In this document: positions 7,892 through 25,454 of the stretch, piece after piece | Layout of the letters: every line of letters starts with the position of its first letter | How positions within the stretch are numbered: position 1 is the stretch's first letter | Assembly: GCF_022899935.1 (NCBI RefSeq) | Contig: NZ_JALJCJ010000005.1 | Span: 62,001 to 126,000, forward strand | Origin: Shinella curvata | Lineage (GTDB): Bacteria; Pseudomonadota; Alphaproteobacteria; Rhizobiales; Rhizobiaceae | Reading direction: 5' to 3' | Length of the DNA stretch: 64,000 bases | Notes under the pieces: generated by a model | The model's input: the letters and a program-made list of their open reading frames with translations, nothing else | Told to the model about the DNA's origin: nothing | Databases searched by the model: none | Translations under genes and position numbers: made by a program

Positions 7892-8998
7892 TCAGCGGGG
7901 GCCCAGGGCTTCGTTTATCGCCACCACCAGCTGCGCCTGCCTGCTCACGCCGACCTTCTCGAAAATACGCGACAAGTGCGTGCGAGCCGTGTTGGCCGAA
8001 ATGCCGCAGCGTTTGGCGGCGGCGGCCCTTCCGTCGCATTCGAGCATTTCCACGGTCAGCCGGGCTTCTGCGCTGGTCAGCCCGAAGGCAAGCCGAAGAT
8101 TCCTGATGCGCGCAGCGGCTTCGTCGATCTCCTCTTCGACCAGAACCAGCGCCCGCACACCCGGAACGGGGATCGCCGGCACGGCGCCCGTGCATGGCAC
8201 GATGCACAGCTTGTAGGCTCGCACATATCCGGGCGCCTGTGCGGTTTCCAGATGGGCCACCGCGCCGGCCGAGCCGGCCAGGGAGCGGCGCACCGTGTTT
8301 TCCAGCGCCGCCTGCCGTCGCGGATTCGCGAGACACAACCGCCCCTCCCGCACGGTAAAGGGATTGCCGGCCTGGAGCATCTGCTCCCCCGTCCGGTTTG
8401 CGAAGATGAGCCCTCCGTCGGCACCGACGCCGAATGCGGCCATGCGCGACGCCTTGCCGGCATGGCTTTCAATCCAGAAATCGAAGTCCAGCTTTCGGAG
8501 CCTGGTGCCGATTTCGATCGATCGCGCGACGTGAGGCACCAGCTGCTCGAAACGCCTGCGAACATCCGACGCGAACTCGTCATGCCGGACGGAGGCCTGG
8601 AGAATGAGGCAGCAATGGCTTCGGCCGTCGTTTATGATGTTGGCGGCGAGGCGTTCGGCGCCAAGGCCTGTACGCCGCCAGTACTCGTTGTGGAACGCGC
8701 TTGCGAAATAGGCCTCGCGACCGCAGTCGTCGAGGCTCCTCACAACGCCCACCCTCGTCCGGGTGTCGATAATGGGATTGAGGCTCCACCAATGCTGGCG
8801 GTATTCCGACACTATCGTCGGATCGGCCCGCGGCGTGACGACACCGGAAAAGCCGCATTGCCGATAGTCATAGACGAGGGCCGAATTCGCCCCTCCGCAG
8901 AAATCGGCGATCTTGCAAAGAACATCGTTCCAGGGATCGGGATCGAGCGCCGTCTCATAGATCGCCGTCAGGACCGAATCAAACGAAGGCAAGCTCAT
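7892..8998 (-). CDS. LuxR family (helix-turn-helix) transcriptional regulator
   Basis: This is a 368-residue protein. Its last 65 residues form a LuxR/FixJ HTH (LTSAEARLTVEMLECDG, then NTARTHLSRIFEKVGVSRQ). The long N-terminal part contains a PAS/GAF-like sensing region with FGVGADGGLIFANRTGEQML in the middle. I chose the ATG at 8998 because GGAGGG lies just ahead of it; the frame extends to an ATG at 9112 with no ribosome site. The ligand is unknown. The type I secretion island begins 300 bp upstream of it, but no direct link is visible. Confidence 0.85.
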   Translation of the reverse strand: MSLPSFDSVLTAIYETALDPDPWNDVLCKIADFCGGANSALVYDYRQCGFSGVVTPRADPTIVSEYRQHWWSLNPIIDTRTRVGVVRSLDDCGREAYFASAFHNEYWRRTGLGAERLAANIINDGRSHCCLILQASVRHDEFASDVRRRFEQLVPHVARSIEIGTRLRKLDFDFWIESHAGKASRMAAFGVGADGGLIFANRTGEQMLQAGNPFTVREGRLCLANPRRQAALENTVRRSLAGSAGAVAHLETAQAPGYVRAYKLCIVPCTGAVPAIPVPGVRALVLVEEEIDEAAARIRNLRLAFGLTSAEARLTVEMLECDGRAAAAKRCGISANTARTHLSRIFEKVGVSRQAQLVVAINEALGPR

Positions 8999-9200
8999 CA
9001 CACCCTCCGTCCCAGGGAAAATCACGAGGTCCGGCGAGACTGCCTGTCTGCCGGCAATCATCTGAAAAACAGATGCAGCCTGTTCTGTCTTTGTAACGGA
9101 CGGCGTTGCCATTCCATTCGCGACCGACCGGAAACAGTCCCGGATTTGGTAAAGCAGGTGCTAAAAAACGACCAGCCACCTCCCTTTTGCTCCACCACAC

Positions 9201-9297: not shown

Positions 9298-11031
9298 TTA
9301 CGTTTCATCGCCTTTGTCGCCCTCATTGCCTTCATTGCCCTCATCGTCCTCATCACTCTCGTCGCCCTCGTCATTTTCGTCGTTCTCGTCGTTCTCGTCG
9401 CCCTCGTTGTTCTCGTTGCCTTCGTCGTTCTCGTCGTTTTCATCATTCTCGTCGCCTTCGTCGCCCTCGTTGTTTTCGTTGTCCTCGTCGCCTTCATCGC
9501 CCTCGTCACCCTCGTCGCCTTCGTCGCCTTCGGAGCCTTCATTGGCCTCGTCACCCTCATCACCCTCGTTGCCTTCGCCCTCGTCACCCTCGTCGCCCTC
9601 GTTACCCTCGTTGCCTTCGGACCCTTCATCGTCCTCGTCACCCTCATTGGCCTCGTCGCTCTCGTCGCCTTCGTTATCCTCGTCGCCCTCGTCGCTTTCG
9701 TTGCCTTCGTCGCCTTCGTTGTCCTCGTCGCCTTCATCACCTTCGTCGGCGCCGGCCTCGTCGCCTTCGTTGCCTTCCTCGCCTTCATTGGCTTCGTCGC
9801 CCTCGTTGCTTTCGTCGCCTTCGTCGCCCTCGTCGCCCTCGTTCAGTTCGTCGCCCTCGTCGCCCTCGCTGCCTTCATTGGCCTCGTCGCCCTCGTCGCC
9901 TTCATCGCCCTGGCCCTCATTGCCTTCGTCATTCTCATCGCCCTCGTTGCCCTCGTCACCCTCGTCATTCTCGTCGCCTTCGTCGCCCTCATCGCCCTCG
10001 GAGCCTTCGTTGCCCTCATCGGCCTCGTCGGCTTCGTCGCCTTCGTTTCCTTCATTACCCTCGCTGTCCTCGTCACCCTCGTCGCCTTCATCCCCCTCGT
10101 CGCCTTCGTCGCCCTCGGACCCTTCGTTGTTCTCATCGCCTTCATCGCCTTCGCTCGACTCGTCGCCTTCGTCACCCTCCTCGCCCTCGTCGCCCTCGTT
10201 GCCTTCGGTTCCCTCGTTGGCCTCGTCGCCCTCGTCACCTTCGTCGCCCTGGCCTTCGTCGCCTTCGTCGCCCTCGTTGCCTTCGCTGCCTTCGTTGCCC
10301 TCGTCGTCCTCGTCGCCTTCATCGCCCTCGTCGTTCTCGTCGTTCTCGTTATCCTCGTCGCCTTCATCGTTTTCATTGCCTTCGTTGGCTTCGTCGTCCT
10401 CGTCGCCCTCGTCACTCTCGTCGGCGCCGGCTTCGTCACCCTCGTTGCCCTCGTCGCCCTCGTCGGTCTCGTCGCCTTCGTTGCCCTCGTCGCCCTCGTC
10501 GGCTTCGTCGCCTTCGTTCAGTTCGTCGCCCTCATTGCCTTCGTCGCCTTCGTTGAACTCGTCCCCTTCATCGCCCTCATCGCCCTGGCCTTCGTTGCCC
10601 TCATCGTTCTCGTCGCCCTCGTTGCCTTCGTTGCCCTCGTCGTCCTCGTCGCCCTCGTCACCTTCGTCGCCTTCGTTGTTCTCGTTGTCCTCGTCGTTCT
10701 CGTCGCCTTCGTTACCTTCATCGTTTTCATCGTTTTCGTCGTTCTCGTTACCCTCGTCGCCCTCGTCGCCTTCGTTACCCTCGTCCGCCTCGTCGCCTTC
10801 ATCACCCTCTTCGCCCTCGTCACCCTCGGAGCCTTCGTCTCCCTCGTCGCCCTCGTCACCTTCATTGCCGTCATTGGAGATCGGCTGCAGGGCGAAACTG
10901 ACATTGCTGTACAGGTCGTCGTCGCCGGCACGCCAGAATTCGGCGAGGTCCAGCAAGGAGGCTGTCGTTTCGGCAATACCGCCACCCATGGCAGATTTCA
11001 GCGCTTCATTGCTCTCAAAAATTGCAGACAT
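9298..11031 (-). CDS. Highly acidic (Asp/Asn)-Glu-Gly tripeptide repeat protein
   Basis: This is a 577-residue protein. Residues 1-53 are non-repetitive (MSAIFESNEALKSAMGGG, then DLAEFWRAGDDDLYSN). The rest, about 174 triplets, is almost only three-residue units DEG, NEG, DEN, DEA, SEG and a few others. AGGAG lies 7 nt before the ATG. The DNA is a 9-bp tandem array with varied third bases, so length may change by slippage. There is no signal peptide, and the start ALKSAMGGG could be a short leader. The sequence predicts an extended, strongly negative, cation-binding polymer. Neighbouring genes encode two HExxH proteins, a 2OG-Fe(II) oxygenase-like protein and a type I exporter, so I suspect a secreted, modified protein. 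I do not recognise a named family. Confidence 0.75.
   Translation of the reverse strand: MSAIFESNEALKSAMGGGIAETTASLLDLAEFWRAGDDDLYSNVSFALQPISNDGNEGDEGDEGDEGSEGDEGEEGDEGDEADEGNEGDEGDEGNENDENDENDEGNEGDENDEDNENNEGDEGDEGDEDDEGNEGNEGDENDEGNEGQGDEGDEGDEFNEGDEGNEGDELNEGDEADEGDEGNEGDETDEGDEGNEGDEAGADESDEGDEDDEANEGNENDEGDEDNENDENDEGDEGDEDDEGNEGSEGNEGDEGDEGQGDEGDEGDEANEGTEGNEGDEGEEGDEGDESSEGDEGDENNEGSEGDEGDEGDEGDEGDEDSEGNEGNEGDEADEADEGNEGSEGDEGDEGDENDEGDEGNEGDENDEGNEGQGDEGDEGDEANEGSEGDEGDELNEGDEGDEGDESNEGDEANEGEEGNEGDEAGADEGDEGDEDNEGDEGNESDEGDEDNEGDESDEANEGDEDDEGSEGNEGNEGDEGDEGEGNEGDEGDEANEGSEGDEGDEGDEGDEGDEDNENNEGDEGDENDENDENDEGNENNEGDENDENDENDEGDESDEDDEGNEGNEGDKGDET
9300..10872. repeat. 9-bp tandem coding repeat array
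   Basis: The array is built from 9-bp units encoding xEG triplets (minus strand GAC/AAC GAA/GAG GGC). It runs for about 1.57 kb with scattered base changes. Because no stop arises in the repeat, two other frames are also open across it; these are by-products. Confidence 0.9.
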
Positions 11032-11391
11032 CGGAGTTCTCCTGAATAGATCGTCCGGACGGAATCATTCCGCCGTCGCGTTGCTTCGTTGTGCGTGAAG
11101 TTTCGGCTGATCTACTTGGACCTGCCCATAGGACCCGGCCGGCGGAACCACTCCGATAGCGCCAGCTTCTGAACGCATGTTCCTGTCTGAAACGGGGTGG
11201 CCGAAGCCAATGAGGGTCTTGACCGTCGCAGGCAATCCACAACATGCGCATTGGGGAGGAAACGTGGGGCAGCGCCTGTTTACGGCGCCGACTCACCAGA
11301 CCATGGTGGCCTGTTCCTCCCTCGGACGACCGGCCCGATAGGGAGCCGACCATCTCTTCCGATTAGACGATCCTGCTAAACGGAATATTCG
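11032..11391. other. Intergenic region upstream of the repeat gene
   Basis: This 360-bp stretch holds the ribosome site AGGAG of the repeat gene at its left end and must contain that gene's promoter. I see no convincing ORF, terminator or clear promoter consensus. Confidence 0.5.
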
Positions 11392-12150
11392 TCAATAGCC
11401 AAGTGCGGCCATCAGGCCGCCCAGATCCTCCTTACCTTCAAAAAGCCGCCAGACCTCGTCGGGGGACAGGTTCTTCTTCGCTTCGCGCGCGAGAAGCCGC
11501 GCGATCGGGTAGTTCCATTCGTAGCTGTATTTGGCCGTCGGTTTGTGCAAGGCGAGCTTCAACGCGGCCGCATAGTGATGGCAATAGACATATTCGTCCC
11601 GTCGCCAGACCAGCACCACGGCCATGTATTCAGGGTGGCTGAAGGCCTCCAGATACTGCAGAAGTGCGGCTTCTCCGACAAAGGCGCAGATCTCGCGCGT
11701 GACCGGCGGTGTGAAGACGCCGCCACTGGCGACGACCTGCAAGGCATGGGCGAATTCGTGCGCGATCGCCATCTGGCTTGCCGCACCGCCATCAAAGGAG
11801 AAATAGACAGTCGGAAAGCCGTCGCCGCCGTCGGCGACGGTCATCGCCCTTGGTGCGCGGATATCGCCGGCCGCCCGCACCTTGTGCGTCGCCGTGTAGG
11901 CACGCGCGATGCTGTCCGCCCTGTCAGGAAAATAATCGAGCATGGCGGCGAGCGCCCGTTGCCATGCGCCATTCGGATCGAGCGGCCCCGGCCAAGTCGC
12001 CATCGGCAAAGAGGGCAGGCTCTCCGTGAGATCATCCTCGACGGCACGCAGCAGCGCACAGCATCTGGGCTCGCTCAAACCGTGAAGATCGAGCCATTCG
12101 CCGAGATTGTTCGAGGTCTTTGTGTCGAAACTCTCATCCACGACGATCAT
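11392..12150 (-). CDS. Hypothetical protein with HEFAH (HExxH) motif, putative metallopeptidase
   Basis: This is a 252-residue protein without a signal peptide. HEFAH at residues 131-135, preceded by hydrophobic residues (SQMAIA), is a zincin-type zinc motif. A possible third ligand Glu lies in CAFVGEAALLQYLEAF at about residues 156-170, the spacing of gluzincins. I do not recognise the family. It lies 28 bp after the second HExxH gene and upstream of the acidic-repeat gene on the same strand. Cleavage or processing of that protein is an attractive but unproven role. Confidence 0.6.
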   Translation of the reverse strand: MIVVDESFDTKTSNNLGEWLDLHGLSEPRCCALLRAVEDDLTESLPSLPMATWPGPLDPNGAWQRALAAMLDYFPDRADSIARAYTATHKVRAAGDIRAPRAMTVADGGDGFPTVYFSFDGGAASQMAIAHEFAHALQVVASGGVFTPPVTREICAFVGEAALLQYLEAFSHPEYMAVVLVWRRDEYVYCHHYAAALKLALHKPTAKYSYEWNYPIARLLAREAKKNLSPDEVWRLFEGKEDLGGLMAALGY

Positions 12151-12178
12151 GTTCGAAGTCCCCGCCCTCCCATGGGCA

Positions 12179-12991
12179 TCAGGAATGATCGCCCGGGCAC
12201 GGGCGGGTATCCTGTTCTTCGGATGTCAAAGGCTGCTCCCTCGGGAACAATCGCGCAATGTAGGCGAGCCGGTTCGGCACGACCTGGCGTACCGTCTGCG
12301 TATCGACGGGAGGAAACCGTTCGGGATAACGCAGAAGGGCGAAGGCGAACAGCGCTGTCTCCGCCAGATCCTCGCGGTCCGGCGTGGCCTGTGCATAGGC
12401 TGTCAGAAAACCGCCGTCACGACGCTGGGCTTCCTGCCAGGCGGGTGCAAGCCTGTGATCGTCGTCAAGCGTCGCGTGGACGGCCTCGTGGAAGAGCGAC
12501 TCCTCCAGATGCGCCTGCGCGATCCGGCGCGTCGCCCGCTCCGCATAGACCACGATCTGCCCCGTTCCCGCATGGAACCCCTCATCTCCGCCGTGAACGC
12601 TGAACCGGCCGATGCCTTCGCGCAGCAGTGGGGGCAGTCGCCCGAGGGGGACGGCGTAGCGCATCGCTTCCGCCCGTGCCTTGTCGGCCGCCGCGAATTC
12701 CGGATTGACGGCGATCTCTATCGACGCCCCGTCGGAATAGTCCGCCGTGAAGAGAAACGCCTCGACGACCGGCTCGCCATCCACCCGCTTGTCCCAGATC
12801 TGGCGGGCGCCGCGACCGATATCGGTCAGGCACCGGAAGCTGCTCGGATCGTCGGCCTCAATGATGTCGAAAACGGTGTCGGCCGTGCTGTCATAGGGCG
12901 GCGTACCGCCGGCGGCGGCCGGACACAGGCCGGCACCCAAAACCAGGCCCGCTACGCCGCACGCACGCATTTTTTGGCAAAACAGGCCCAT
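12179..12991 (-). CDS. Hypothetical exported protein with HEAVH motif, putative zinc peptidase
   Basis: Starting from the ATG at 12991, this is a 270-residue protein with a hydrophobic signal-like N terminus (residues about 11-27, ending AAAGG). HEAVH lies at residues 168-172. Acidic residues about 30 residues later (REDLAET) could supply the third zinc ligand. The remaining sequence is unfamiliar. The ribosome site is weak; starts at 13015 or 12970 are possible, and the frame is open to 13135. Together with the gene at 11392 it forms a pair of dissimilar HExxH proteins next to the repeat protein, this one probably periplasmic. Confidence 0.6.
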   Translation of the reverse strand: MGLFCQKMRACGVAGLVLGAGLCPAAAGGTPPYDSTADTVFDIIEADDPSSFRCLTDIGRGARQIWDKRVDGEPVVEAFLFTADYSDGASIEIAVNPEFAAADKARAEAMRYAVPLGRLPPLLREGIGRFSVHGGDEGFHAGTGQIVVYAERATRRIAQAHLEESLFHEAVHATLDDDHRLAPAWQEAQRRDGGFLTAYAQATPDREDLAETALFAFALLRYPERFPPVDTQTVRQVVPNRLAYIARLFPREQPLTSEEQDTRPCPGDHS

Positions 12992-13288
12992 GAGCCGATC
13001 CGATCCCCAGTGCATCTCTCGCAGGACGCAGCGCGATCCTGCATAGGGAAAAATGCGCCAAATCCGTCTGGCCACTGGAAAACCGGCAGCCATCCGACCG
13101 GGAAATCTAAATGATGATTTTCTAATCTGCATCACACAAACGTCGCACGAAGCCGACGATTCTTGCGCGTATGAAAGATAGGCCGACCGACAGCCGATGC
13201 GCGGCGAGCGAGCCGCCTGCGGCCACCGGGACAGACCGGCGGATCACGGCAAGCGGCACCCACCGAATTGTGCGTAAGGACGATGACG

Positions 13289-13933
13289 ATGAACGAAATG
13301 GTGAACATCAGCCGAACCGACTACTTTCCGACAATGGTCTATCAGTTCGATCTTCCCGATCCCGACGGGCTCAATGCGCAACTGATCGACCTCATTTACC
13401 GGGAGCGCGAGGCCGACAAACTCGGCGTCACGAAGTCGAATACCGCCGAGCTGGGAAGCTGGCACAGCAACACGAACCTGCACAAATCCAAGGACTACAG
13501 CGCCATCCTTTCCCATATCCACGAGGTCGGCGGACATATTTCCGATGAACTCGGCTATGCCCGCGATCATGAATTGAGCGTCACCACGATGTGGTCGATC
13601 ATCAACCCGCCCGGCAATGGCAACCGCATGCATGTTCATCCCGGAGCGATCTGGAGCGGGGTCTACTATGTGCAGACGCCGGAAGCCTCGGGCGATATCG
13701 AATTCGTCGACCCGCGCACCGCGCTTCTGATGAACCAGCCGAAATACCTGCCGAAGCGGAAACGGCCGCGCAACTGCTGGACCAAGGTCAACTACAAGCC
13801 GGTGGCGGGCAGGATGCTGTTCTTCCCGAGCTGGCTCTACCATGGCGTCGATTCCAACATGGCGACGGCGCCCGGCCGCAATGCCGACCGGGTCATCATC
13901 TCCTTCAACATCAATCAGGTGAAGAAGAAGTAG
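13289..13933 (+). CDS. 2-oxoglutarate/Fe(II) oxygenase-like protein (TIGR02466-type)
   Basis: This is a 214-residue protein. The ATG at 13289 has AAGGA 8 nt upstream; an ATG at 13283 is too close to it. Diagnostic blocks of the family are visible: MHVHPGAIWSGVYYV (His115, His117), GDIEFVDPR (about 135-143), GRMLFFPSWLYHGV (distal His185) and RVIISFNI near the end, whose Arg would bind 2-oxoglutarate. Such enzymes hydroxylate small molecules or protein side chains such as Pro, Asp or Asn. It is the first gene of the operon with the type I exporter, so a secreted D/N-rich protein is a logical substrate (inference). Confidence 0.8.
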   Translation: MNEMVNISRTDYFPTMVYQFDLPDPDGLNAQLIDLIYREREADKLGVTKSNTAELGSWHSNTNLHKSKDYSAILSHIHEVGGHISDELGYARDHELSVTTMWSIINPPGNGNRMHVHPGAIWSGVYYVQTPEASGDIEFVDPRTALLMNQPKYLPKRKRPRNCWTKVNYKPVAGRMLFFPSWLYHGVDSNMATAPGRNADRVIISFNINQVKKK

Positions 13934-14052
13934 GCAGGCCAACGGGGCCTGGGCGCACGGCCTTCGCCCCGGACGGCCGCATTGGCGAAGAAGGATCGGG
14001 TTCGTGGCCGGCAAGCCTTGTGCTTGCGGCCATGCTTCCCGCGGGTCAGATC

Positions 14053-15768
14053 ATGTCCACTGCTCCAAGCCGTACGATACTGCGTCAGGCGTTGCACAGG
14101 GTTCGTTACATCTTCCTGTTCTCCCTTGCCTTCAGTTTCTTCTACAACGTCCTGCGCCTGACAGGGCCGCTCTTCATGATCCTTGTCTATGATCGCGTTC
14201 TGACCTCCCGCGCCGAGGAAACGCTCATCGCCCTCTTCGTGCTTGTCGCGGCACTTCTGGTCTTGATGGCACTCATCGACTATTCCCGCAGGCGGATCAT
14301 GGCCCGGTTCGGCGCACAGTTCCAGGAGGCGGTGGAAGCCGGGATTTTCCAGGTACGCAATCGCAACGCCTATTTCACGTCCGCGGGCACAAAGCCTGCG
14401 CAGGAGCTCAACGAGCTCGACCGGTTGCGTTCGTTCTTTCATTCCGGCTCACTCATTGCGATCCTCGACTTTCTCTGGTCGCCCATCTTCCTGGTGCCGA
14501 TTTTCATCCTGCATGCCGCCCTTGGCTGGATCGTCGTCGGTGGACTTCTGGTGATCTTCGCCATCGCCGTTCTGCGCCAGCACTTCATCAAGGAATATGA
14601 TCTGCGCGCGACCCAGGCGAGCGACGCCATCGGCACGCTGAAGGACCAGATCGGCGGGTCTAGAAGCGTCATCCGGGCGCATGAAATGACGTCCGCCTTC
14701 ATCGACCGCTGGCAAGCCGCGCGCAAGGATTCCCGCGATCGGGCGATCGAGCTGAAGGACTGGGACGCCTGGTTCGAAATCGGCTCGAAGCATCTGGCGA
14801 TGCTGCTGCAATACAGCCTCCTGGCGGGGGGCGCCTACTTCGCCATCAAGGGTGACCTGTCGATCGGTGCCATGGTCGCGACCAACTATCTGGCTGTCCG
14901 CGTGGTCTTCCCATTCGAGCGTTTTCTCGGCGAAATGCCCCGGCTGCGGGAGAGCATGGCCGACTGGAAGCGGCTGGATGCGAGCCTCGGCCAGCGCGAG
15001 ACGCGGCTGTCCAATGCAGGCGACGGCGACCTGCCCGCGAGCATCGCCTTGACGAACCTCTATGTCCGCTCGCCGATGAGCCGCCAGCAGATCCTGCGCA
15101 GCATCAACCTCGACATAGGGCCCGGTACCTCCGTCGAAATCACGGGCCGCTCCGGCAGCGGCAAGAGCGTGCTCGCCGAAGCGATACTCGGCCGCTTGGA
15201 ACGCAGCAATGGAACCATCCTCATCGGTGGTATCCAGATCGAACGGCTCTCGCTCGACCAGGCCCGCGCGGCCATCGGCTACGTGCCGCAGACCGTATCC
15301 TTCCTGCCCGGCACCATCGAGGACAATATCGCAGGCTTCGATGTAGCGCCCGATCCGGAGGCGCTTGTCGATGCCGCCCGGCTTGCGGCGGTCCACGACC
15401 TGATCATGAGCCTGCCGGACGGCTACAAGACCATGATCGACGCGGCGGGCAGCTCCTTTTCCAAGAGCGAGCGGCACATGATTGCCTTTGCCCGCGCGCT
15501 CTACCGGAAACCGAGAATGCTTGTCATCGACGAGCCGGATCAGGTGCTGCGCGAAGGCCTTCCGGGCCGGTTCAAGGCATTCGTGACGGATTTCCTCGGC
15601 AGCGGCGGCATCATGATCATCTTCAGCCGGAAGGGATTGCAGGCCTTTCAGTCGAAGCGGCGGTTCAGCGTCGCCAACGGGCAGTTGAAGGAAGTGACCG
15701 AGGACGGCGCGCCGAAAGCCGGAAAGACCGGCAACGTGGTGAAACTCGACAGCAAGCACAAGATCTGA
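14053..15768 (+). CDS. Type I secretion system permease/ATPase (PrtD-like) with degenerate ATPase motifs
   Basis: This is a 571-residue ABC half-transporter of the PrtD/HlyB group without an N-terminal C39 peptidase domain. Six membrane helices span residues about 20-300, the ATPase about 330-545. Walker A is GRSGSGKS, the Q-loop YVPQ and Walker B MLVIDE. But the LSGGQ signature is replaced by SFSKSER, and the H-loop His is absent (IFSRKG in place of the usual THR). Hydrolysis may therefore be weak or need an unusual arrangement. ATG at 14053 is chosen by homology; upstream sequence in this frame is not family-like. It lies between the oxygenase and the HlyD partner. Confidence 0.85.
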   Translation: MSTAPSRTILRQALHRVRYIFLFSLAFSFFYNVLRLTGPLFMILVYDRVLTSRAEETLIALFVLVAALLVLMALIDYSRRRIMARFGAQFQEAVEAGIFQVRNRNAYFTSAGTKPAQELNELDRLRSFFHSGSLIAILDFLWSPIFLVPIFILHAALGWIVVGGLLVIFAIAVLRQHFIKEYDLRATQASDAIGTLKDQIGGSRSVIRAHEMTSAFIDRWQAARKDSRDRAIELKDWDAWFEIGSKHLAMLLQYSLLAGGAYFAIKGDLSIGAMVATNYLAVRVVFPFERFLGEMPRLRESMADWKRLDASLGQRETRLSNAGDGDLPASIALTNLYVRSPMSRQQILRSINLDIGPGTSVEITGRSGSGKSVLAEAILGRLERSNGTILIGGIQIERLSLDQARAAIGYVPQTVSFLPGTIEDNIAGFDVAPDPEALVDAARLAAVHDLIMSLPDGYKTMIDAAGSSFSKSERHMIAFARALYRKPRMLVIDEPDQVLREGLPGRFKAFVTDFLGSGGIMIIFSRKGLQAFQSKRRFSVANGQLKEVTEDGAPKAGKTGNVVKLDSKHKI

Positions 15769-15807
15769 GGATCCCGCCCCTCAACGCCGCAAACGGAGGT
15801 GGACACA

Positions 15808-17106
15808 ATGCCAAGGCGAACCTGGATGATCTGGCAGCCGCTCAGTATCGGCCTCGCAGCGGCCATCGCCCTCATTGGCGTCGTGTTCGGCTGGGGCACC
15901 AGCTTCAGCATATCCGGCGCCGTGATCGCCAAGGGCCAGGTCCAGGCATCGACGACGCGCACGGCGGTTGAACACCCGATCGGCGGCGTGGTGGCCGAAG
16001 TCTACCGGCACAATGGCGACAAGGTTGCCGCCGGAGAGGTCCTGGTCAAGCTCGACGAAGACCTGCTGCGCTCCGACCTTTCCGTCATCGAGGGCGAACT
16101 TTACGAGATCTTCGCAAACGAGGCACGGCTGGAGGCCGCGATCACCGGGGCGACCGAGCTGTCGCCGGATCCCCTCCTGCTGCAGGCGTCCGAAACGAAC
16201 CCCTATTATCGCCGGCTCATCGAGAGACAGCAGCTTCAACTCGACGCCCACTACACGTCCATCCGGACCGAGGAGCGGCTGCTTGGCGAACAGATCGCCC
16301 AAATCCGGGAGCAGATCGCCGGAGAGGAGGCGTTGCTGCTGTCGCGCAAAGGCAAGCTCGATGTGTTCAATTCACAGCTCGGCCTTTCGGAGCGGCTCTT
16401 CAGCCGGAAGGTCGGCCTTGTCGCGGACCTCAACACCGCCAAGAACAACGTCATCAACACACAGGGCGAAATCGGCGTCTCGGCCGCCAAGGTCGCCGAG
16501 CTCAAGGGAGAGATCGTCGAGCTCGAGGTGCAGCTGAACGCCAAGCTGCAAGGCGAACGCAAGGCGAATGCCGACAAGCTGAACGGGCTCGGCCAATCGC
16601 GCATCCGGCTCCTGGAGAGCCGCCGCGCCGTCCTGCGGAAACTGGCGACACTGGAAGTTCGCGCGCCCATCGGCGGCATCGTGCACGACCTCAAGGTCGA
16701 GGGCTTGCGCTCGGTGGTGCAGCCGGGTCAGGCCCTCATGTTCATCGTGCCGGATATCCTGCCGCAGACCGTGACCGTGCGTGTCGACGCCGCCGACATC
16801 GACCAGGTTCACCTCGGTCAGGATGCCGCCCTGCGCTTCGTTGCTTTCCACCGGCGCACGACACCGGTCATCTTCGGCAAGGTTTCGGAGATTTCGGCGG
16901 ACGCCTTCATCGATGAGCGCAGCCAGGGTCTCTATTATTTTGCGGAGATCGCGCTTGCGCAAACCGAAATCGGCCGACTTGGCGAGAACGTGCTCGTCTC
17001 CGGCATGCCGGTCGAGGCCTTCATCACGACGGAAAGCCGTTCGCCCGTGAGTTATGTGATGAAACCGCTCACCGACTATTTCAGCCGCGCCTTCCGCGAT
17101 TCCTGA
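15808..17106 (+). CDS. HlyD family type I secretion periplasmic adaptor
   Basis: This is a 432-residue protein. One N-terminal membrane helix (about 15-37) is followed by a split lipoyl/barrel-sandwich region (EHPIGGVVAEVYRHNGDKVAAGEVLVKLD), a long coiled coil (about 95-290) and the second half (LEVRAPIGGIVHDLKV), as in PrtE/HlyD. It bridges the ABC protein and a TolC-type channel. GGAGGT stands 7 nt before the ATG at 15808. No TolC gene is adjacent; the channel fragment at 1-300 is one candidate partner. Confidence 0.92.
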   Translation: MPRRTWMIWQPLSIGLAAAIALIGVVFGWGTSFSISGAVIAKGQVQASTTRTAVEHPIGGVVAEVYRHNGDKVAAGEVLVKLDEDLLRSDLSVIEGELYEIFANEARLEAAITGATELSPDPLLLQASETNPYYRRLIERQQLQLDAHYTSIRTEERLLGEQIAQIREQIAGEEALLLSRKGKLDVFNSQLGLSERLFSRKVGLVADLNTAKNNVINTQGEIGVSAAKVAELKGEIVELEVQLNAKLQGERKANADKLNGLGQSRIRLLESRRAVLRKLATLEVRAPIGGIVHDLKVEGLRSVVQPGQALMFIVPDILPQTVTVRVDAADIDQVHLGQDAALRFVAFHRRTTPVIFGKVSEISADAFIDERSQGLYYFAEIALAQTEIGRLGENVLVSGMPVEAFITTESRSPVSYVMKPLTDYFSRAFRDS

Positions 17107-17156
17107 CGAACCGATGACGACTGCATGACCTGCAACCCGACCAAAGGAGAACGACC

Positions 17157-17351
17157 ATGTCCGAGGGACGAAAACCCGATTTTGACGTCTTTGCCATTCG
17201 TGAACGGGAGGGCGGCAAGGACGTCTTCACCAAGATCGGCGTGGCCTTCAGCCGGCACGACGGTGCGGGCGTGTCGATCCTGCTCGACGCCCTCCCTCTC
17301 GGGCGCCGTCTCGCGGTCCTGCCGCCGCTTCCGAGCAGCGACAACCGCTAG
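17157..17351 (+). CDS. Small conserved-looking hypothetical protein (64 aa)
   Basis: This is a 64-residue protein preceded by AAAGGAG 7 nt upstream of the ATG. The pattern KPDFDVFAIRERE, DVFTKIGVAF, GAGVSILLDALPL resembles a widespread family of small proteins of about 60-90 residues, often seen near mobile or accessory genes, whose function I do not know. It lies 50 bp after the HlyD gene and before a strong terminator, so it closes the secretion operon. It could be an accessory factor, or an unrelated passenger. Confidence 0.65.
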   Translation: MSEGRKPDFDVFAIREREGGKDVFTKIGVAFSRHDGAGVSILLDALPLGRRLAVLPPLPSSDNR

Positions 17352-17512: not shown

Positions 17513-20500
17513 TCAGAACTGTTTTCCGGCCCTGACGGTTGCACCGACGGATTTCTGGCCGTCACCTTCGAGGTTGAGCAGGAGGCTTGCCTCGAGCATC
17601 CAGAAGTCCGAGGTCTGCATGGCGATACCGGCGGTGACCGATCCATAGAAGCCGGAGCCGTCGATGCCGGCATAACCCGCCGTCACACCCAGCTTCGGCG
17701 TCACCGTCGCACCGCTCTCGAGCGTGAAGGACCGTGCGATCTCCGCACCGAGGCTCACCCGGAACTGTTCGGCGTCGAAGCCTTCGATATCCAGTTCGTC
17801 GCCATCGCCGTTGTGCACCGTGTAGTCATCGACCTTTTCGTTGAAGTAGATCGCCCGGAGCTTCGGCGTCAGCACCGTCGCCTCACCGATCTGCCATTCG
17901 CCCTTGATGGCCGTATCGATCATCCAGCGCTGCGTGTCGAACGAACCGTCCCAGAAGGCAGTGTCGATGTCGTTGGCCGAGCCGCCGTAGAGCAGGCTCG
18001 TATCCCAGAACACGCCCTTGCCGATCTCCAGCGAGGCATAGGGACCGGCGAGCCAGCCGTTGCCGGTCAGCTCCGCATCCGCATCGCTCGGATCGGTCAT
18101 CCGGTCGAGATGGAAGGACAGACCGACCAGCGCCTTCTCCGAAATCAGATAGTCGGCACCGAGATTGAGCATGGCGAAGCTGCCCCACCTGCCGTCGTTC
18201 TGGTCGCGTTTGTGCGCCAGGAACGCGCCGTCGATCCAAGCGTTGAAGGCGGAGGAAGCCGCCCCTTCGATACCGTCGGCACGGTCGCGGGCCGCATCCA
18301 TCTGCGCAAGACTGGTGGAGAAGCTTGCCGTCATGCCGTCTTCCGAGGGCGTCATGCGGGCCGTCACCGTATCCGTCGCCTGTTCCATCTGCCGCCGCTC
18401 CTGAAGACCCGGCACGTAGATGCCGTTTGCGATCAGGCCCTGACGCGTCTCCACGAAGCCCCGCACCAGGGCGTCGATATCCTCGGCGACCTGCTGGGCG
18501 TCGTGTTGCAGATTGTACGTGACCGTCCCGGTATTGGAGGTGCCGAGTTCACTTGACAGGCGGTATCCGACCTTCGCCGCACCGGAGAAGGCGGGGTTCG
18601 GGCTGAACTGCAGATACCAGCCGACAGGTTCGCTCACCGGGCCGGCCTGCGCCACCTGCCCGCGGATGATGCTCGCCGTGCCGGCATTGGCAGGCTCGAC
18701 GAAAGTCGCTTCGGCCGCGGTGAACGGCCCACCGGTCGCACCGCCGTTCAGGTAGACATCGGCAGGCGATCCACCTGCCGGCACGTTGACCACGTGGTTC
18801 GACGCCGTGACCTGACGCGCGGTAACACTGAGCGAGTAGGTCGCCGAGCCGGTCGCACCGTTGTTGTCGCGCACGGCGATCTTGAAGCTATAGTTGCCCT
18901 TGCTTGCCGCATCGAGCGGTCCGGTCAGTTCTCCCGTCGAGACATTCAGCACCATGCCCTTCGGCAGTTTGCCGGAGGCAAGGCTGTAGAGCAGCGGCGC
19001 CGCGCCACCGGTCGCCTTGATCTGCTGGCTATAGTCCTCACCTGCCATCGTCTTGCCGAGGCTGCCCGCCGGCGGCGTGAAGGCGAAGACCACCACCGGC
19101 ACCTTGACCACCATCTCGTATGCGGCAGATCCCGTCGCGCCATAGGCATCGGTCGCGGTGACCGTGAAGCCGAAGCTGCCCGCCGTCGTCGGTGTCCCGC
19201 CAATCGTGCCGGCCGTGCCATCGAGCACGAGGCCCGTCGGCAACGCTCCCGCCGTGACCGCATAGCTGTAGGGCGCCGTGCCCTTGGAGGCGGTCAGCAC
19301 GCGGCGATACGCCTTGCCGACCGTGCCGCGCGGCAGCGCACCGGCGGCCGGCGACAGGGCGAGCTTCGGGGGCGTCACGGTGACGGTGACGGTTGCCGGC
19401 GAGGATGTGCCGGCCGCATTGGTGGCCGTATAGGTGAACGTGTCCAGACCGGAATAGCCGGCGACGGGTTTGTAGGTGATCGCCTTCTTCGAAGCAGTCG
19501 TGGTACCGTGCGCGGCCGCCGTCGCGACGGCAACCGATGTCGCCGTTCCGCCGGTGATGTTGAGCGTCACCGCCTTGGCCGACGCATTGGCGGCAACCGT
19601 CAGCGCCACCGCATTGGCGATCGGCGCCTCTCCGCCGACGACGAGGCTGTAGCTTGCCGTCCCGGTGGCACCATAGGTGTCGGTCGCGGTGAGGGCAAAG
19701 TCGAAGCTGCCCGCCGCCGTCGGCTTGCCATTGAGCTTGCCGGTCGCGCCGTCCAGCGTGAGGCCGGCGGGCAGCGATCCCGTCGTGACGGCATAGCTGT
19801 AGGGTGCCGTGCCCTTGGTGGCCGAGAAGGTCTTGCTGTAGGCCGTGCCGACCGTACCGGCCGGCAGCGCACCGGCGGCCGGCGACAGCACAAGCGTCGG
19901 CGCCGTCACGGTCACCGTCACGGTTGCCGGCGACGACGTGCCGGTCGCATTGGTGGCCGTATAGGTGAAGCTGTCCGTGCCGGAATAGCCGGCGACAGGC
20001 TTGTAGGTGATCTTGTTGCCGGATGCCGTCGCCGTGCCGTGCGAGGCGGCCGTCGCGACGGCAACCGATGTCGCCGCGCCACCGGTGATGTTGAGCGTCA
20101 CCGCCTTGGCCGACGCATTGGCAGCAACCGTCAGCGCGACCGCATTGGCGACCGGCGCCTGAACGCCGACAGCCAGACTGTAGTTTGCGGTGATCGTGGC
20201 GCCAAAGGCATCGGTCGCCGTGACATCGAAGCTGTAGGCCCCGTCGGCATCGGGAGTTCCGGAGACCACGCCGGCCGTGCTCAGCGCCAGCCCGTTCGGC
20301 AGCGCGCCGCTGGTCACGGCATAGCTGTAGGGTGCCGTGCCCTTGGTGGCCGAGAAGGTCTTGCTGTAGGCCGTGCCGACCGTACCGGCCGGCAGCGCAC
20401 CGGCGGCCGGCGACAGCACAAGCGTCGGCGCCGTCACGGTCACCGTCACGGTTGCCGGCGACGACGTGCCGGTCGCATTGGTGGCCGTATAGGTGAAGCT

Positions 20501-23500
20501 GTCCGTGCCGGAATAGCCGGCGACCGGCTTGTAGGTGATCTTGTTGCCGGATGCCGTCGCCGTGCCGTGCGAGGCGGCCGTCGCGACGGCAACGGATGCC
20601 GCCGCGCCACCGGTGATGTTGAGCGTCACCGCCTTGGCCGAAGCATTGGCGGCAACCGTCAGCGCCACCGCATTGGCGATCGGCGCCTGAACGCCGACGG
20701 CCAGGCTGTAGCTTGCAGTGATCGTGGCGCCATGCGCATCGGTCGCCGTGACATCGAAGCTGTAGGCCCCGTCGGCATCGGGAGTTCCGGAGACCACGCC
20801 GGCCGTGCTCAGCGCCAGCCCGTTCGGCAGCGCGCCGCTGGTCACGGCATAGCTGTAGGGTGCCGTGCCGTTCGAAGCGGTAAAGGTCTGGTTGTAGACC
20901 GTACCGGCGGTGCCGGCCGGCAGTGCCCCTGCAGCAGGCGAAAGTGAAAGCGTCGGATTACCGATCGTCAGGGTATAAGCGTTTGCGTTCGTGTAAGGAC
21001 CTGCCCCGGTCGAACTGTCCGTACCGGTCACCGTGAAGCTGAACGTGCCGCTGGTCGTCGGTGTGCCTGACAGGGTGCCGCTCATGGCCAGAGTGAGGCC
21101 ATCAGGAAGCGTACCGGCGGTGAGAGCATAGCTGTAGGGCGCTATCCCGCCGGCGGCCGTGACGGTCTGGCTGTAAGCAATGCCCGTCGTGCCGGTGGGC
21201 AGAGCGCCCGCAGCCGGCGACAGTGCGATTGTCGCCGCGTCGACGGCCAACGCATAGGTTCTCGAGCCCGTATAGGGACCCGACGTCGTCGCGCCGTCGG
21301 TAGCCGTGACGGTGAAATTATAGGTTCCGCCCCCCGTCGACACACCCGAGATGGAGCCCGTTGTATCCAGTGTGAGGCCGGGGGGAAGCGCGCCGGCCGT
21401 GATCGCGAAGCTCACCGGAGCGAGCCCGCCGGTATTGCTCAGGGTCGCGCTATAGGAGACGCCGATGGCGGCATTCGAAAGCGTCGCGGGGTTGATGGTG
21501 ATGGTCGGGGCAGCAATGCCGAGAGCGACCGAGGCCGTGCCGGTAAACGCGCCGAGACCCGAAGAGCTGTCGGTGGCGGTGATCACCACCGTTGCATTGC
21601 CCGCCGTCGTCGGCGTGCCGGAGATGACGCCCGAGCTGCTGATCGACAGGCCGGCAGGCAGGCCACTTGCCGAGAAGTTGGAATAGGGACCGGCGCCACC
21701 ATTGACGCTGACGGTCGCCCCGCCACTGTTATAGGCGTCGCCGACCGTGCCGGTGGAGGCCGGCAACGTGACCGAGAAAACCGGATCGTTCACCGGTACC
21801 GTGACGGTGGCGGCGCTCGACGCCCCGCCCTGATTGATGGCCGTGAAGGTGAAGCTGTCATTGCCGCGGAAGCCGACCGGCGGCGTGTAGGTGACCAGTC
21901 CGGCGCTGTCGATGCTGACCGAGCCGCCATTGGCTGAAGTCGCCGACCCCACGGCATAGTCGGTCGGATTGCCGGTGGCCTGCGCCGCCAGGCTGAACGT
22001 CGTGGCCGACGCGGAGCCCGCGTTGTAGGCCACCGCCGGGGCGGCAAAACCCGTCACCACCGGTGGCGGCGGCAAGACGACCGTCAGGGTCGCCGTGACG
22101 TTGGCGGTGTAGGGGCCAGCGCCCGTCGAATTGTCGGTGACGTAGATGTTGACGGTGAAGGTTCCGTCGACAGTCGGCGTACCGTCCAGAACGGCGCCGC
22201 TGCTGGCCATGCCGGCGGGCAGGCCACTCATGCTGTTGACCGTGTACGGTGCTTTGCCGCCCGAGAGCGTCACTTCAGCGCCGCCGGTGTTGTAGGCCGT
22301 GCCGACGGTGGCTGTGGCCGACGGCAGCGATACCGAAATCGTCGGATTGCCGATCGTCAGGGTGACGATGGCAGGGCTCGACGTGCCACCCACATTGGAC
22401 GCCGTGAAAGAGAAGCTGTCATTGGCGTTGCGGTAAAAGGTCGGCGGCGTATAGGTCACCTGACCGCTGTTGTCGACGCTGACCGAGCCGCCCTGGGCCG
22501 TTGTTGCGGAGCCGACAGCATAGCCGGTCGGGTTGTTGGCCGCATGGCTCGACAGATCGAACGATACACTGGTGTTAGCGCCGTCATTGTAGGGGACGAT
22601 TGCCCCATAGGTGAAGCTCGTGGCCACCGGCGCCGCGACATAGGTGAACTGGTCGGCTACGCTGGTCGCGCTCGTTCCACCGATGGTGGTAACACGGATG
22701 TCTACCGTGCCCGCCGCACCGGCCGGCGCGGTCGCCGTGATCTGGGTGGCGCTGTTGACCGTAAACCCGGTCGCCGCGGTACCGCCGAAGGTTACCGCCG
22801 TCGCACCTGAAAGGCCGGTTCCCGTGATGACGACCGACGTGGTGCCCGCCGTCGGGCCGGCCGTCGGAGATACAGACGTCACCGTCGGTGCCGGAACATA
22901 GGTGAACTGGTCAGCCGCGCTGGTCGCGCTTGTTCCACCGATGGTGGTCACGCGGATATCGACCGTACCCGTCCCGGCCGGCGCCGTCGCCGTGATCTGG
23001 GTTGCGCTGTTGACCGTAAACCCGGTCGCCGCCGTGCCGCCGAACGTTACCGACGTGGCGCTCGAGAAGCCGGTGCCCGTGATGACGACCGACGTGCCGC
23101 CCGCCGTCGGCCCGGCCGTCGGAGACACGGACGTCACCGTCGGCGCCGCCACATAAGTATATTGATCAGCTGCGCTGACCGCGCTCGTTCCACCGATAGT
23201 GGTAACGCGGATGTCCACTGTACCCACCGCCCCGGCCGGCGATGTCGCCGTGATGGTGGTCCCGTTGAGAACCGTAAACCAACTCGCCGCCGTGCCGCCG
23301 AACGTTACGCCCGTGGCACCCGAAAGATTGGTGCCCGTGATCGTAACGGACATGCCGCCCGCCGTCGGGCCGGCCGTCGGAGACACAGACGTCACCGTCG
23401 GGGCCGGAACATAGGTGAACTGATCGCCCGCGGTGGTCGCGCTTGTACCGCCCACGGTGGTCACGGTAATGTCGTAGGTGCCCGCCGAGTTGGCCGGCGA

Positions 23501-24685: not shown

Positions 24686-25454
24686 GAGCGATTGAGGGCG
24701 GGACGCCGATGTCAAGGACATCACCGCGAGCGCAAGAAACCACACGCGAACGATAATTTCACAGCCACGCTCGAAGACAGCGCCGAGGCCTCCCCAGGTC
24801 CCAGTACCCCATGCCCGCATTTTACAGCCCCCAGCGACGGCGTGTGCCATCGAAAAATCACATCATTCCGGACGAACCTTTCCTCAAAAACAGGAAAGAG
24901 ATCAAACCATGGTTGTACTCAGCGTGGGCCGCGCGCAAAAGAATTGCGTCGTGTGTTGAAAATACACCAACCACGCGAACAGCCGACGCCTTGCCCGTAT
25001 TCGTCCTGCGCGTTGCCAGACCCGCCCAACGCAACGGGCCTCTGCTTCCGATACGAAGCGCACAGTTCCGCGCCACGCCGCTCGATCCGACCGTCAGGCA
25101 ACGATGCATCGTCATTTGTTCGTGGAAAGCGTTATCCAACCGAATCCGAAATGTCTGCGTCCATTTTTGACATCCCCGGGAACGGTGGCTCGACCGACCG
25201 CACCGGAATGACGTCAATCTTCGGCGCGACCATTCTGTTCGAGCCGATGTGCATTATGGCAAGGCAGGTTGAAAAGGCACGCGAAGTCCACATGCCCCTC
25301 AGTTCATCGGCGGAATAGAAGATGCAAACAAAAAGCCTGCCGCAGAAGGAGCGGCAGGCTTTCAAATCACGATCGGCAACCAGGAGAAATAACATTGCCG
25401 AAATGCTTCGCCTCGCCTCGAAGGGAGCTCGGTCCTCCGAGGCGAGGCGGTTGG
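24686..25454. other. Long intergenic region upstream of the autotransporter gene
   Basis: This region must contain the autotransporter promoter and the end of the ABC importer operon. Apart from two hairpins (25332-25362 and 25409-25449) I find nothing: open frames here lack family-like sequence and ribosome sites. Confidence 0.5.
25332..25362 (-). terminator. Rho-independent terminator of the sugar ABC importer operon
   Basis: A perfect 12-bp stem (AAAGCCTGCCGC/GCGGCAGGCTTT) with a 7-nt loop is followed on the minus strand by TTTTTGTTTG. A second 12-bp inverted repeat lies closer to the stop codon at 25409-25449. Confidence 0.9.

Follow-up and report, generated by a model that had tools for sequence, protein, structure and literature searches.

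The window analysed here is a stretch of 64,000 nucleotides of Shinella curvata (contig NZ_JALJCJ010000005.1, positions 62,001 to 126,000), and its positions 9,298 to 17,351 hold a cassette that centers on a strongly acidic repeat protein (Table 1). The cassette is laid out as two divergent gene groups, with two proteins carrying HExxH motifs (HExxH-2 and HExxH-1) and the repeat protein encoded on the minus strand and an oxygenase, an ABC protein, an HlyD-family protein and a small protein on the plus strand. We consider it probable, at roughly 60%, that the cassette produces a polyanion with a leader and exports it, after modification by the oxygenase and removal of the leader by HExxH-1. The conservation of the gene set, the co-occurrence of its members, a common leader motif and the M3-like signature of HExxH-1 are established and carry this reading. 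A preliminary description of the window had proposed an island for the modification and export of the repeat protein; all seven of its open reading frames were confirmed, their motifs and divergent layout included.

Conservation and loss of the gene set

Two loci from genera other than that of the window's genome (G000), L008 in genome G064 and L079 in genome G1154, hold the same six-gene set in the same divergent plan, with the repeat gene and both HExxH genes on one side and the genes for the oxygenase, ABC and HlyD proteins on the other. The HExxH genes of L008 stand in the order seen in the window; those of L079 are swapped, HExxH-1 lying by the oxygenase gene and HExxH-2 by the repeat gene. 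Identity to the window's proteins was 68 and 54% (L008 and L079, respectively) for the oxygenase, 60 and 54% for HExxH-2, 53 and 44% for the ABC protein and 34 and 32% for HExxH-1. The recurrence of the gene set in three genera is more than chance would be expected to produce, and the cassette is, as judged from these comparisons, rare but conserved.

A search with HExxH-1 found relatives in five of 151 genomes of the family, its own included, and a profile of the protein at an E-value of 1e-14 matched 12 of 394 family genomes, among them its own and G549, a genome of the same genus. Among 299 genomes of the phylum the profile matched the window's own genome alone. At the level of the order, 380 of 397 genomes passed an E-value of 0.001; the matches listed include one further strong case (G323), and those listed besides G000 and G323 scored 1e-10 or weaker and lay in frames of about 520-1,025 amino acids. 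All 13 loci with HExxH-1 were read around the gene as far as they could be fetched. Viral contigs contained no relatives of HExxH-1 or of the oxygenase clade, and plasmids none of HExxH-1, HExxH-2 or the HExxH-1 relative of locus L009. Because HExxH-2 was present in two of 21 genomes of the window's genus, the cassette is sparse and probably mobile.

The preliminary description had suggested a search for the oxygenase, the two HExxH proteins and the repeat protein in the same genomes, and strong matches did come together in the same four of 14 genomes. The oxygenase profile matched strongly in G000, G549, G064 and G1154 and weakly in G001 (2e-18), and HExxH-2 matched in the four genomes with a strong oxygenase. 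These four are also the genomes with HExxH-1 and a full or remnant repeat gene: all of the 14 except G001 were searched for the repeat protein as well, and the same four carry it, G549 as a remnant. Neither the oxygenase nor HExxH-2 was found in the nine other genomes with HExxH-1. Searched against the 151 family genomes, the oxygenase profile gave matches in G000 and G064 and a weak one in G001. The repeat protein was matched in six of 20 genomes, namely G000, G064, G1154, G549 (the remnant), G1032 (a fragment at a contig end) and G136 (a weak match to a different protein, 35%), and G000 held a second, weak match elsewhere (31%).

The corresponding locus of a sister species, Shinella sp. CPCC 101442 (L007), has lost part of the cassette. 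Its repeat protein retains the leader (81% over residues 1-65) and then runs through NDGHEGDET straight to the end, which leaves a tract of about one unit. In the ABC gene a frameshift is followed by a deletion that joins the gene to the end of the small gene that starts at 17157 in the window, and the HlyD gene is gone. The joint loss of exporter and repeat tract is as expected if one serves the other; with the conservation in L008 and L079, it supports the earlier proposals that these genes form an island, that the repeat protein is its cargo and that the exporter is linked to it. HExxH-1, HExxH-2 and the oxygenase are still open frames in L007, and the ratio of nonsynonymous to synonymous substitution rates (dN/dS) between the window and the sister species was 0.06 for the oxygenase and 0.13 for HExxH-1.

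The repeat protein, its leader and the M3-like protein

The repeat core that follows the ...VSF of the leader comprises 531 residues, 92.5% of them D, E, G or N, with 296 D or E, a single K, R or H, 156 [DN]E pairs, 102 [DN]EG units and a computed charge of -294.6. The 102 units are written by 21 different 9-mers; they were picked as [DN]EG, so their invariance is otherwise by construction. Free third codon positions beside a fixed set of residues would be expected under selection on the protein, and the use of both glutamate codons in the repeat gene (GAA 73, GAG 100) alongside so narrow a composition argues for selection at that level. The Pfam Collagen model matched the repeat protein at 3.1e-27, and an NCBIfam collagen-like model matched as well. 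As in collagen-like proteins, parts of the tract have glycine at each third position, but its register is broken (24/26/72 across the three phases) and the window's core has no proline; we rejected a collagen-like adhesin, as the matches reflect glycine spacing. An RTX protein, which would have type I export in common with the cassette, was rejected because GGxGxD nonapeptides are absent from the repeat sequence. In the G064 repeat gene a brief stretch with basic residues is out of register (L008, 11390-11520), which may reflect an error of sequencing or a pair of local frameshifts.

A leader motif near D-L-x-A/S-P-V-S-F-G/A is common to the repeat proteins and to glycine-rich peptides encoded beside relatives of HExxH-1. 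It reads DDLYSNVSFA, EDLYSPLSFA and SDLFAPVSFA in the three repeat proteins and DCLDSAFSFG, PGIDAPVSFG, LGIDAPVSFG, DDLVSPVSFG and DDLQAPVSFG in five small peptides; it was their position that first drew attention to the peptides of L009 and L010. A shuffle test was run on seven representatives (L074 was omitted as a near-copy of L010). The observed score was reached by none of 2000 shuffles, both when all seven N-termini were shuffled and when the repeat proteins alone were. The cassette resembles loci for ribosomally synthesized and post-translationally modified peptides (RiPPs) in having a conserved N-terminal leader before a variable core and co-encoded maturation enzymes, with modification predicted.

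The glycine-rich peptides belong to a second context of HExxH-1. Eight longer relatives of this protein (308-379 amino acids) lie in other loci, and an HlyC-type acyltransferase adjoins all eight (Pfam HlyC in both of two tested), an exporter ABC and HlyD pair five of the eight and a small glycine-rich, glycine-zipper-like peptide also five; in L011, L053, L076 and L078 a contig end is close by where some of these neighbors are missing. An HlyC gene was found in none of the five short-form HExxH-1 loci. Two of three glycine-rich peptides scanned have sub-threshold Gly-zipper matches. The cassette appears to have both its leader motif and its trimming enzyme in common with systems that make small peptides resembling bacteriocins. 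Five of the loci (L009, L010, L074, L075 and L076) combine Cdz-like glycine-rich peptides with HlyC and an M3-like/HlyC-like fusion, and the acyltransferase there suggests that the peptides may be lipidated. In L053 a relative of HExxH-1 with an HlyC-like tail lies beside an HlyC acyltransferase and a Cupin_8 protein (200-1315, 1273-1719 and 1713-2852), the last a second, unrelated candidate 2-oxoglutarate (2OG) oxygenase.

The glycine-rich peptides resemble CdzC/D of Caulobacter, and the relevant passages of the Cdz paper describe two divergent operons, as here, and small proteins with leaders that leave by type I export (PMC5380434). With HExxH-1 relatives and the leader motif common to such loci, the product of the cassette could be a Cdz-like antibacterial polymer on the cell surface and not a matrix polymer, the polyanion serving as carrier, shield or antidote. 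We think this unlikely. The Cdz cargo is a small glycine zipper whereas that of the window is a long polyanion, and a core of this composition with a charge of about -295 is unlike a glycine zipper; nor does the cassette hold an evident immunity gene. The words "peptidase," "acyltransferase" and "HlyC" are absent from the main text of the Cdz paper (PMC5380434).

By profile comparison HExxH-1 is M3-like, a resemblance absent from the preliminary description, and no signal peptide was seen by eye. A profile built from six relatives gave matches to structures of oligoendopeptidase F (best E-value 4e-4), and with 13 rows the five structures at an E-value of 1 or below were oligoendopeptidase F (three), an oligopeptidase and a putative peptidase (best 7.6e-6). 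The L009 relative matched TIGR02290, an M3 family model, at 3.5e-8, below the cut-off. Invariant in the alignment were HE..H..Q, RE.CA..GE and Y.Y..NY..AR. On account of these matches and motifs we place HExxH-1 with the M3-like proteins. It resembles oligoendopeptidase F (PDB 2h1j, 3ahm) in the HExxH core and in the M3-type sequence pattern around it; oligoendopeptidase F has about 565 residues against 252 in HExxH-1, and the catalytic part alone aligns. The preliminary description had called the two HExxH proteins unrelated-looking, which hhalign bore out (probability 0.9%), and on the same result we rejected the possibility that they are duplicates. Its suggestion that the repeat protein is trimmed gains support from the M3-like character of HExxH-1 and from a leader motif common to the cargo and to peptides adjoining HExxH-1 relatives; the cleavage itself is predicted.

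Alternatively, HExxH-1 might be an alpha-ketoglutarate-dependent (aKG) HEXXH hydroxylase, in which case two oxygenases would act on the repeats and the leader would be removed elsewhere or not at all. Such enzymes exist and hydroxylate strings of consecutive Gln, the passages available of one paper also citing an enzyme that beta-hydroxylates Asp and His (PMC12636437), and a tract composed of D, N and E would suit them as a substrate. The match of the HExxH-1 profiles to oligoendopeptidase F-type structures and that of the L009 relative to an M3 model speak against such an assignment. No model named for an aKG-HEXXH RiPP hydroxylase in NCBIfam, which should contain one, matched HExxH-1, HExxH-2 or the relatives in L009 and L079 at an E-value of 0.1 or below; the L079 relative weakly matched a putative metalloprotease model (0.02). 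We therefore regard a hydroxylase role for HExxH-1 as improbable. The PflC/PosC pathways of this kind resemble the one proposed here in that an Fe/aKG enzyme, guided by a leader, modifies a series of similar residues and in backbone cleavage, but, as described in that paper's relevant passages, they act on short RiPP precursors and their HEXXH enzyme is the oxygenase (PMC12636437), whereas the HExxH-1 of the cassette is M3-like and its oxygenase belongs to the TIGR02466 family.

The oxygenase, HExxH-2 and the exporter

The oxygenase matched TIGR02466 with 182.5 bits (cut-off 62.5) and PF13759 with 82.8 (cut-off 27). The candidate active-site residues H115, H117, H185 and R201 are invariant in four rows and matched in the structures 3bvc and 2rg4. 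The solved members of the family, PDB 3bvc and 2rg4, are titled uncharacterized, and none of the four papers listed as mentioning its identifiers is about the family. Fe/2OG enzymes of other families hydroxylate Asp and Asn residues, and since D or N also recurs throughout the tract, Asp/Asn hydroxylation was chosen as the proposed reaction. We infer hydroxylation of the repeats from the family of the oxygenase and the company it keeps.

The wider family was surveyed for acidic neighbors, defined as open reading frames with at least 27 D or E in 60 residues, by reading the contexts of all 12 plasmid records with a TIGR02466 match. Twelve control loci (144,665 bases) contained no such frame. 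In a plasmid of Limimaricola variabilis (L051) the gene for an acidic protein (9357-9884) lies directly upstream of the TIGR02466 gene (9989-10648). The acidic protein is signal-peptide-like and EF-hand-like and has a (DED/DRDED)-rich tail with 54 D or E in 60. This pair is an independent hint that the TIGR02466 family may act on acidic Ca-binding proteins. One of three phage contexts holds an acidic frame, which is a head scaffolding protein (29 D or E in 60). The family is usually without an acidic neighbor, with one suggestive exception, and a family-level tally of 1 for and 11 against leaves the reading of the cassette unmoved. A Sulfitobacter plasmid (L052, 9971-11801) has, about 0.6 kb downstream of its TIGR02466 gene, a gene with the annotation aspartyl/asparaginyl beta-hydroxylase domain protein. 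Synechococcus phage S-CREM1 (L110, 3070-8560) carries a row of nine genes, eight annotated as 2OG-Fe(II) oxygenase family and one as JmjC.

HExxH-2 had no match in Pfam or NCBIfam and at best a chance-level match in PDB. Three remote relatives were found in 385 genomes of the class. In two of them the HExxH-2-like domain forms the N-terminal part of a giant protein, and both loci also have an RTX-like gene (RTX by reading), directly before the giant gene in G833 and about 4 kb before it in G916; the third, in G786, has an internal stop. The fusion of these relatives to giant proteins near RTX-like genes points to work at the cell surface for HExxH-2, which is probably located outside the inner membrane.

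An ABC protein with a membrane domain (PF00005, PF00664) and an HlyD-family adaptor (TIGR01843, 273.4 bits, cut-off 208.65) encoded side by side are the marks of type I secretion; TIGR01842 (PrtD) matched the ABC protein below cut-off. No TolC partner was seen within the cassette, and a genome-wide search for one was not made. In the three complete cassettes the ABC signature is FSKSE or FSKRE and SALD is absent, whereas the ABC proteins of L009 and L010 have LSGGQ and SALD. The degenerate signature, kept across genera, suggests an unusual transport cycle.

Proposed pathway, alternatives and known systems

In the pathway that we propose, the repeat protein would carry, when made, an N-terminal leader with a D-L-x-A/S-P-V-S-F-A motif at its end, and the TIGR02466 oxygenase, in the cytosol, would probably hydroxylate Asp and/or Asn side chains of the repeats. 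Other leader-peptide exporters carry a C39 peptidase domain; here cytosolic HExxH-1 would replace it and cut the leader off at the motif or close to it. Export of the core would then fall to the ABC/HlyD pair together with a TolC-like channel whose gene lies elsewhere, and HExxH-2, which Sec would export, may trim the product or clear it away, either in the periplasm or outside the cell. The mature product would be an extended, Ca-binding surface or matrix polymer, and a Ca-dependent surface or biofilm polymer, similar to BapA, is its likeliest role. We infer each enzymatic step, the binding of cations and the role from sequence.

Several observations weigh against this pathway. In a stricter, cross-group test of the leader motif 22 of 2000 shuffles reached the observed score (for single proteins, 32 for the window, 22 for L008 and three for L079), L009 and L010 fit the motif loosely (scores 15 and 10), and the small peptides were gathered by a pattern containing SF[GA], which favors the motif result. 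Pfam and NCBIfam scans of the window's HExxH-1 alone gave no M3 match, and two structure models were of low confidence (mean predicted local distance difference test, pLDDT, 37.4 and 36.4). Genome G1032, which is 72% complete in 650 contigs, has a repeat fragment and a short HExxH-1, with no oxygenase or HExxH-2 found. In L007 the enzymes are intact despite the broken cargo and exporter, which fits a recent loss, but they could also have another use; the loss of the repeats there could itself be a misassembly. Lastly, 11 of the 12 plasmid contexts of TIGR02466 lack a strongly acidic open reading frame. It had been stated beforehand that an oxygenase common without an acidic-repeat gene would count against the proposal. 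That holds for the family at large, given these plasmids and the 173 phage records with members, and not for the close clade, whose strong matches were found only with the cassette.

The same plasmid and phage contexts, together with the intact enzymes of L007, would also suit neighbors with separate jobs, the oxygenase acting on a small molecule or on another protein. Joint presence in four of 14 genomes, one plan in three genera and the Limimaricola pair make such independence doubtful. That the repeat frame is a chance reading of a 9-bp DNA satellite is very improbable: the other strand and other frames also hold long open reading frames, but third positions are free while the residue set is fixed, the gene keeps its neighbors, and in other genera the leader motif and the composition persist though the repeat pattern differs.

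For the proposed role, the closest experimental precedent is BapA of Paracoccus denitrificans, which has 891 Asp-Ala repeats and a pI of 2.4 and is needed for Ca-stimulated biofilm, according to the passages at hand (PMC5588039). There, as here, type I exporter genes (BapBCD) adjoin the gene for a simple-repeat polyanion. The BapA repeat is DA in place of (D/N)EG, its termini are divergent and it is annotated as an RTX-family agglutinin; those passages name no oxygenase, leader peptidase or second metalloprotein (PMC5588039). The preliminary description knew of no described system with this gene set, and our search of open-licence PubMed Central (PMC) papers likewise found no description of the set or of the shared leader. 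The individual components are known.

A wider proposal is more tentative. The cassette may be a RiPP-like pathway enlarged to a (D/N)EG polymer of more than 500 residues, in which a leader in common with glycine-zipper bacteriocins directs a stand-alone M3-like peptidase and a TIGR02466 peptidyl Asp/Asn hydroxylase and an ABC protein with a degenerate signature secretes a hydroxylated, metal-binding extracellular polyelectrolyte; TIGR02466 proteins more widely, the Limimaricola member among them, would then be hydroxylases of acidic, Ca-binding secreted proteins. If true, it would link type I export of polyanions for biofilm (BapA), leader-guided export of bacteriocins (Cdz) and oxygenase tailoring of ribosomal peptides. 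It would also give a concrete substrate hypothesis for TIGR02466, a family of cyanophages and bacteria, and would supply, for a compact M3-like peptidase, a cleavage motif that can be tested.

Table 1. Features of the cassette in the window and of HExxH-2-like proteins in other loci.
Feature	Position	Strand	Description
Repeat-protein precursor	9298..11031	-	577 amino acids; leader of about 45-55 residues, followed by polyanionic core of (D/N)EG type; homologous proteins in L008 and L079, fragment in G1032
Leader motif DDLYSNVSFA, residues 38-47	10891..10920	-	Present in 3/3 repeat proteins and in glycine-rich peptides adjoining HExxH-1 relatives
HExxH-1	11392..12150	-	252 amino acids; compact, M3 (oligoendopeptidase F)-like, HEFAHALQ; signal peptide not seen by eye; proposed leader peptidase
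HExxH-2	12179..12991	-	Metallopeptidase-like, HEAVH; Sec-like N-terminus (by eye); open reading frame extends to 13135
Oxygenase	13289..13933	+	TIGR02466 / 2OG-FeII_Oxy_5; proposed peptidyl Asp/Asn hydroxylase
ABC protein of type I exporter	14053..15768	+	PrtD-like; FSKSE in place of usual LSGGQ; SALD missing after DEPD
HlyD-family membrane fusion protein	15808..17106	+	TIGR01843; alternative start 15799
Small protein	17157..17351	+	64 amino acids; also by the cassette in G064, remnant in L007, none in L079; accessory or passenger
HExxH-2-like giant proteins	L061 6740-13516; L060 7676-12277		Two other alphaproteobacterial families

Translation of HExxH-2 probably starts at 12991 and not at 13135 because L007 has an in-frame stop just upstream of the conserved MGLFCQK start; the idea that this TAG breaks HExxH-2 in L007 was rejected, as the stop precedes the likely start. 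The small protein is, by its distribution, optional to the cassette: the copy adjoining the cassette in G064 is 83% alike, that of L007 is partial and L079 has none. A scan for promoters and terminators gave nothing exceeding shuffled controls. Next to the repeat gene, positions 7892-9112 (minus strand) encode a LuxR-type regulator that is present in L007 and has no match in L008 or L079. Beyond the small gene, a giant surface protein of 2445 amino acids is encoded at 17513-24850 (minus strand). Its last 400 residues had no match in any other compared locus; it has nine He_PIG, six TIG and seven Big_9 stretches (Pfam) and a C-terminus that is, by reading, apparently an autotransporter-like barrel.

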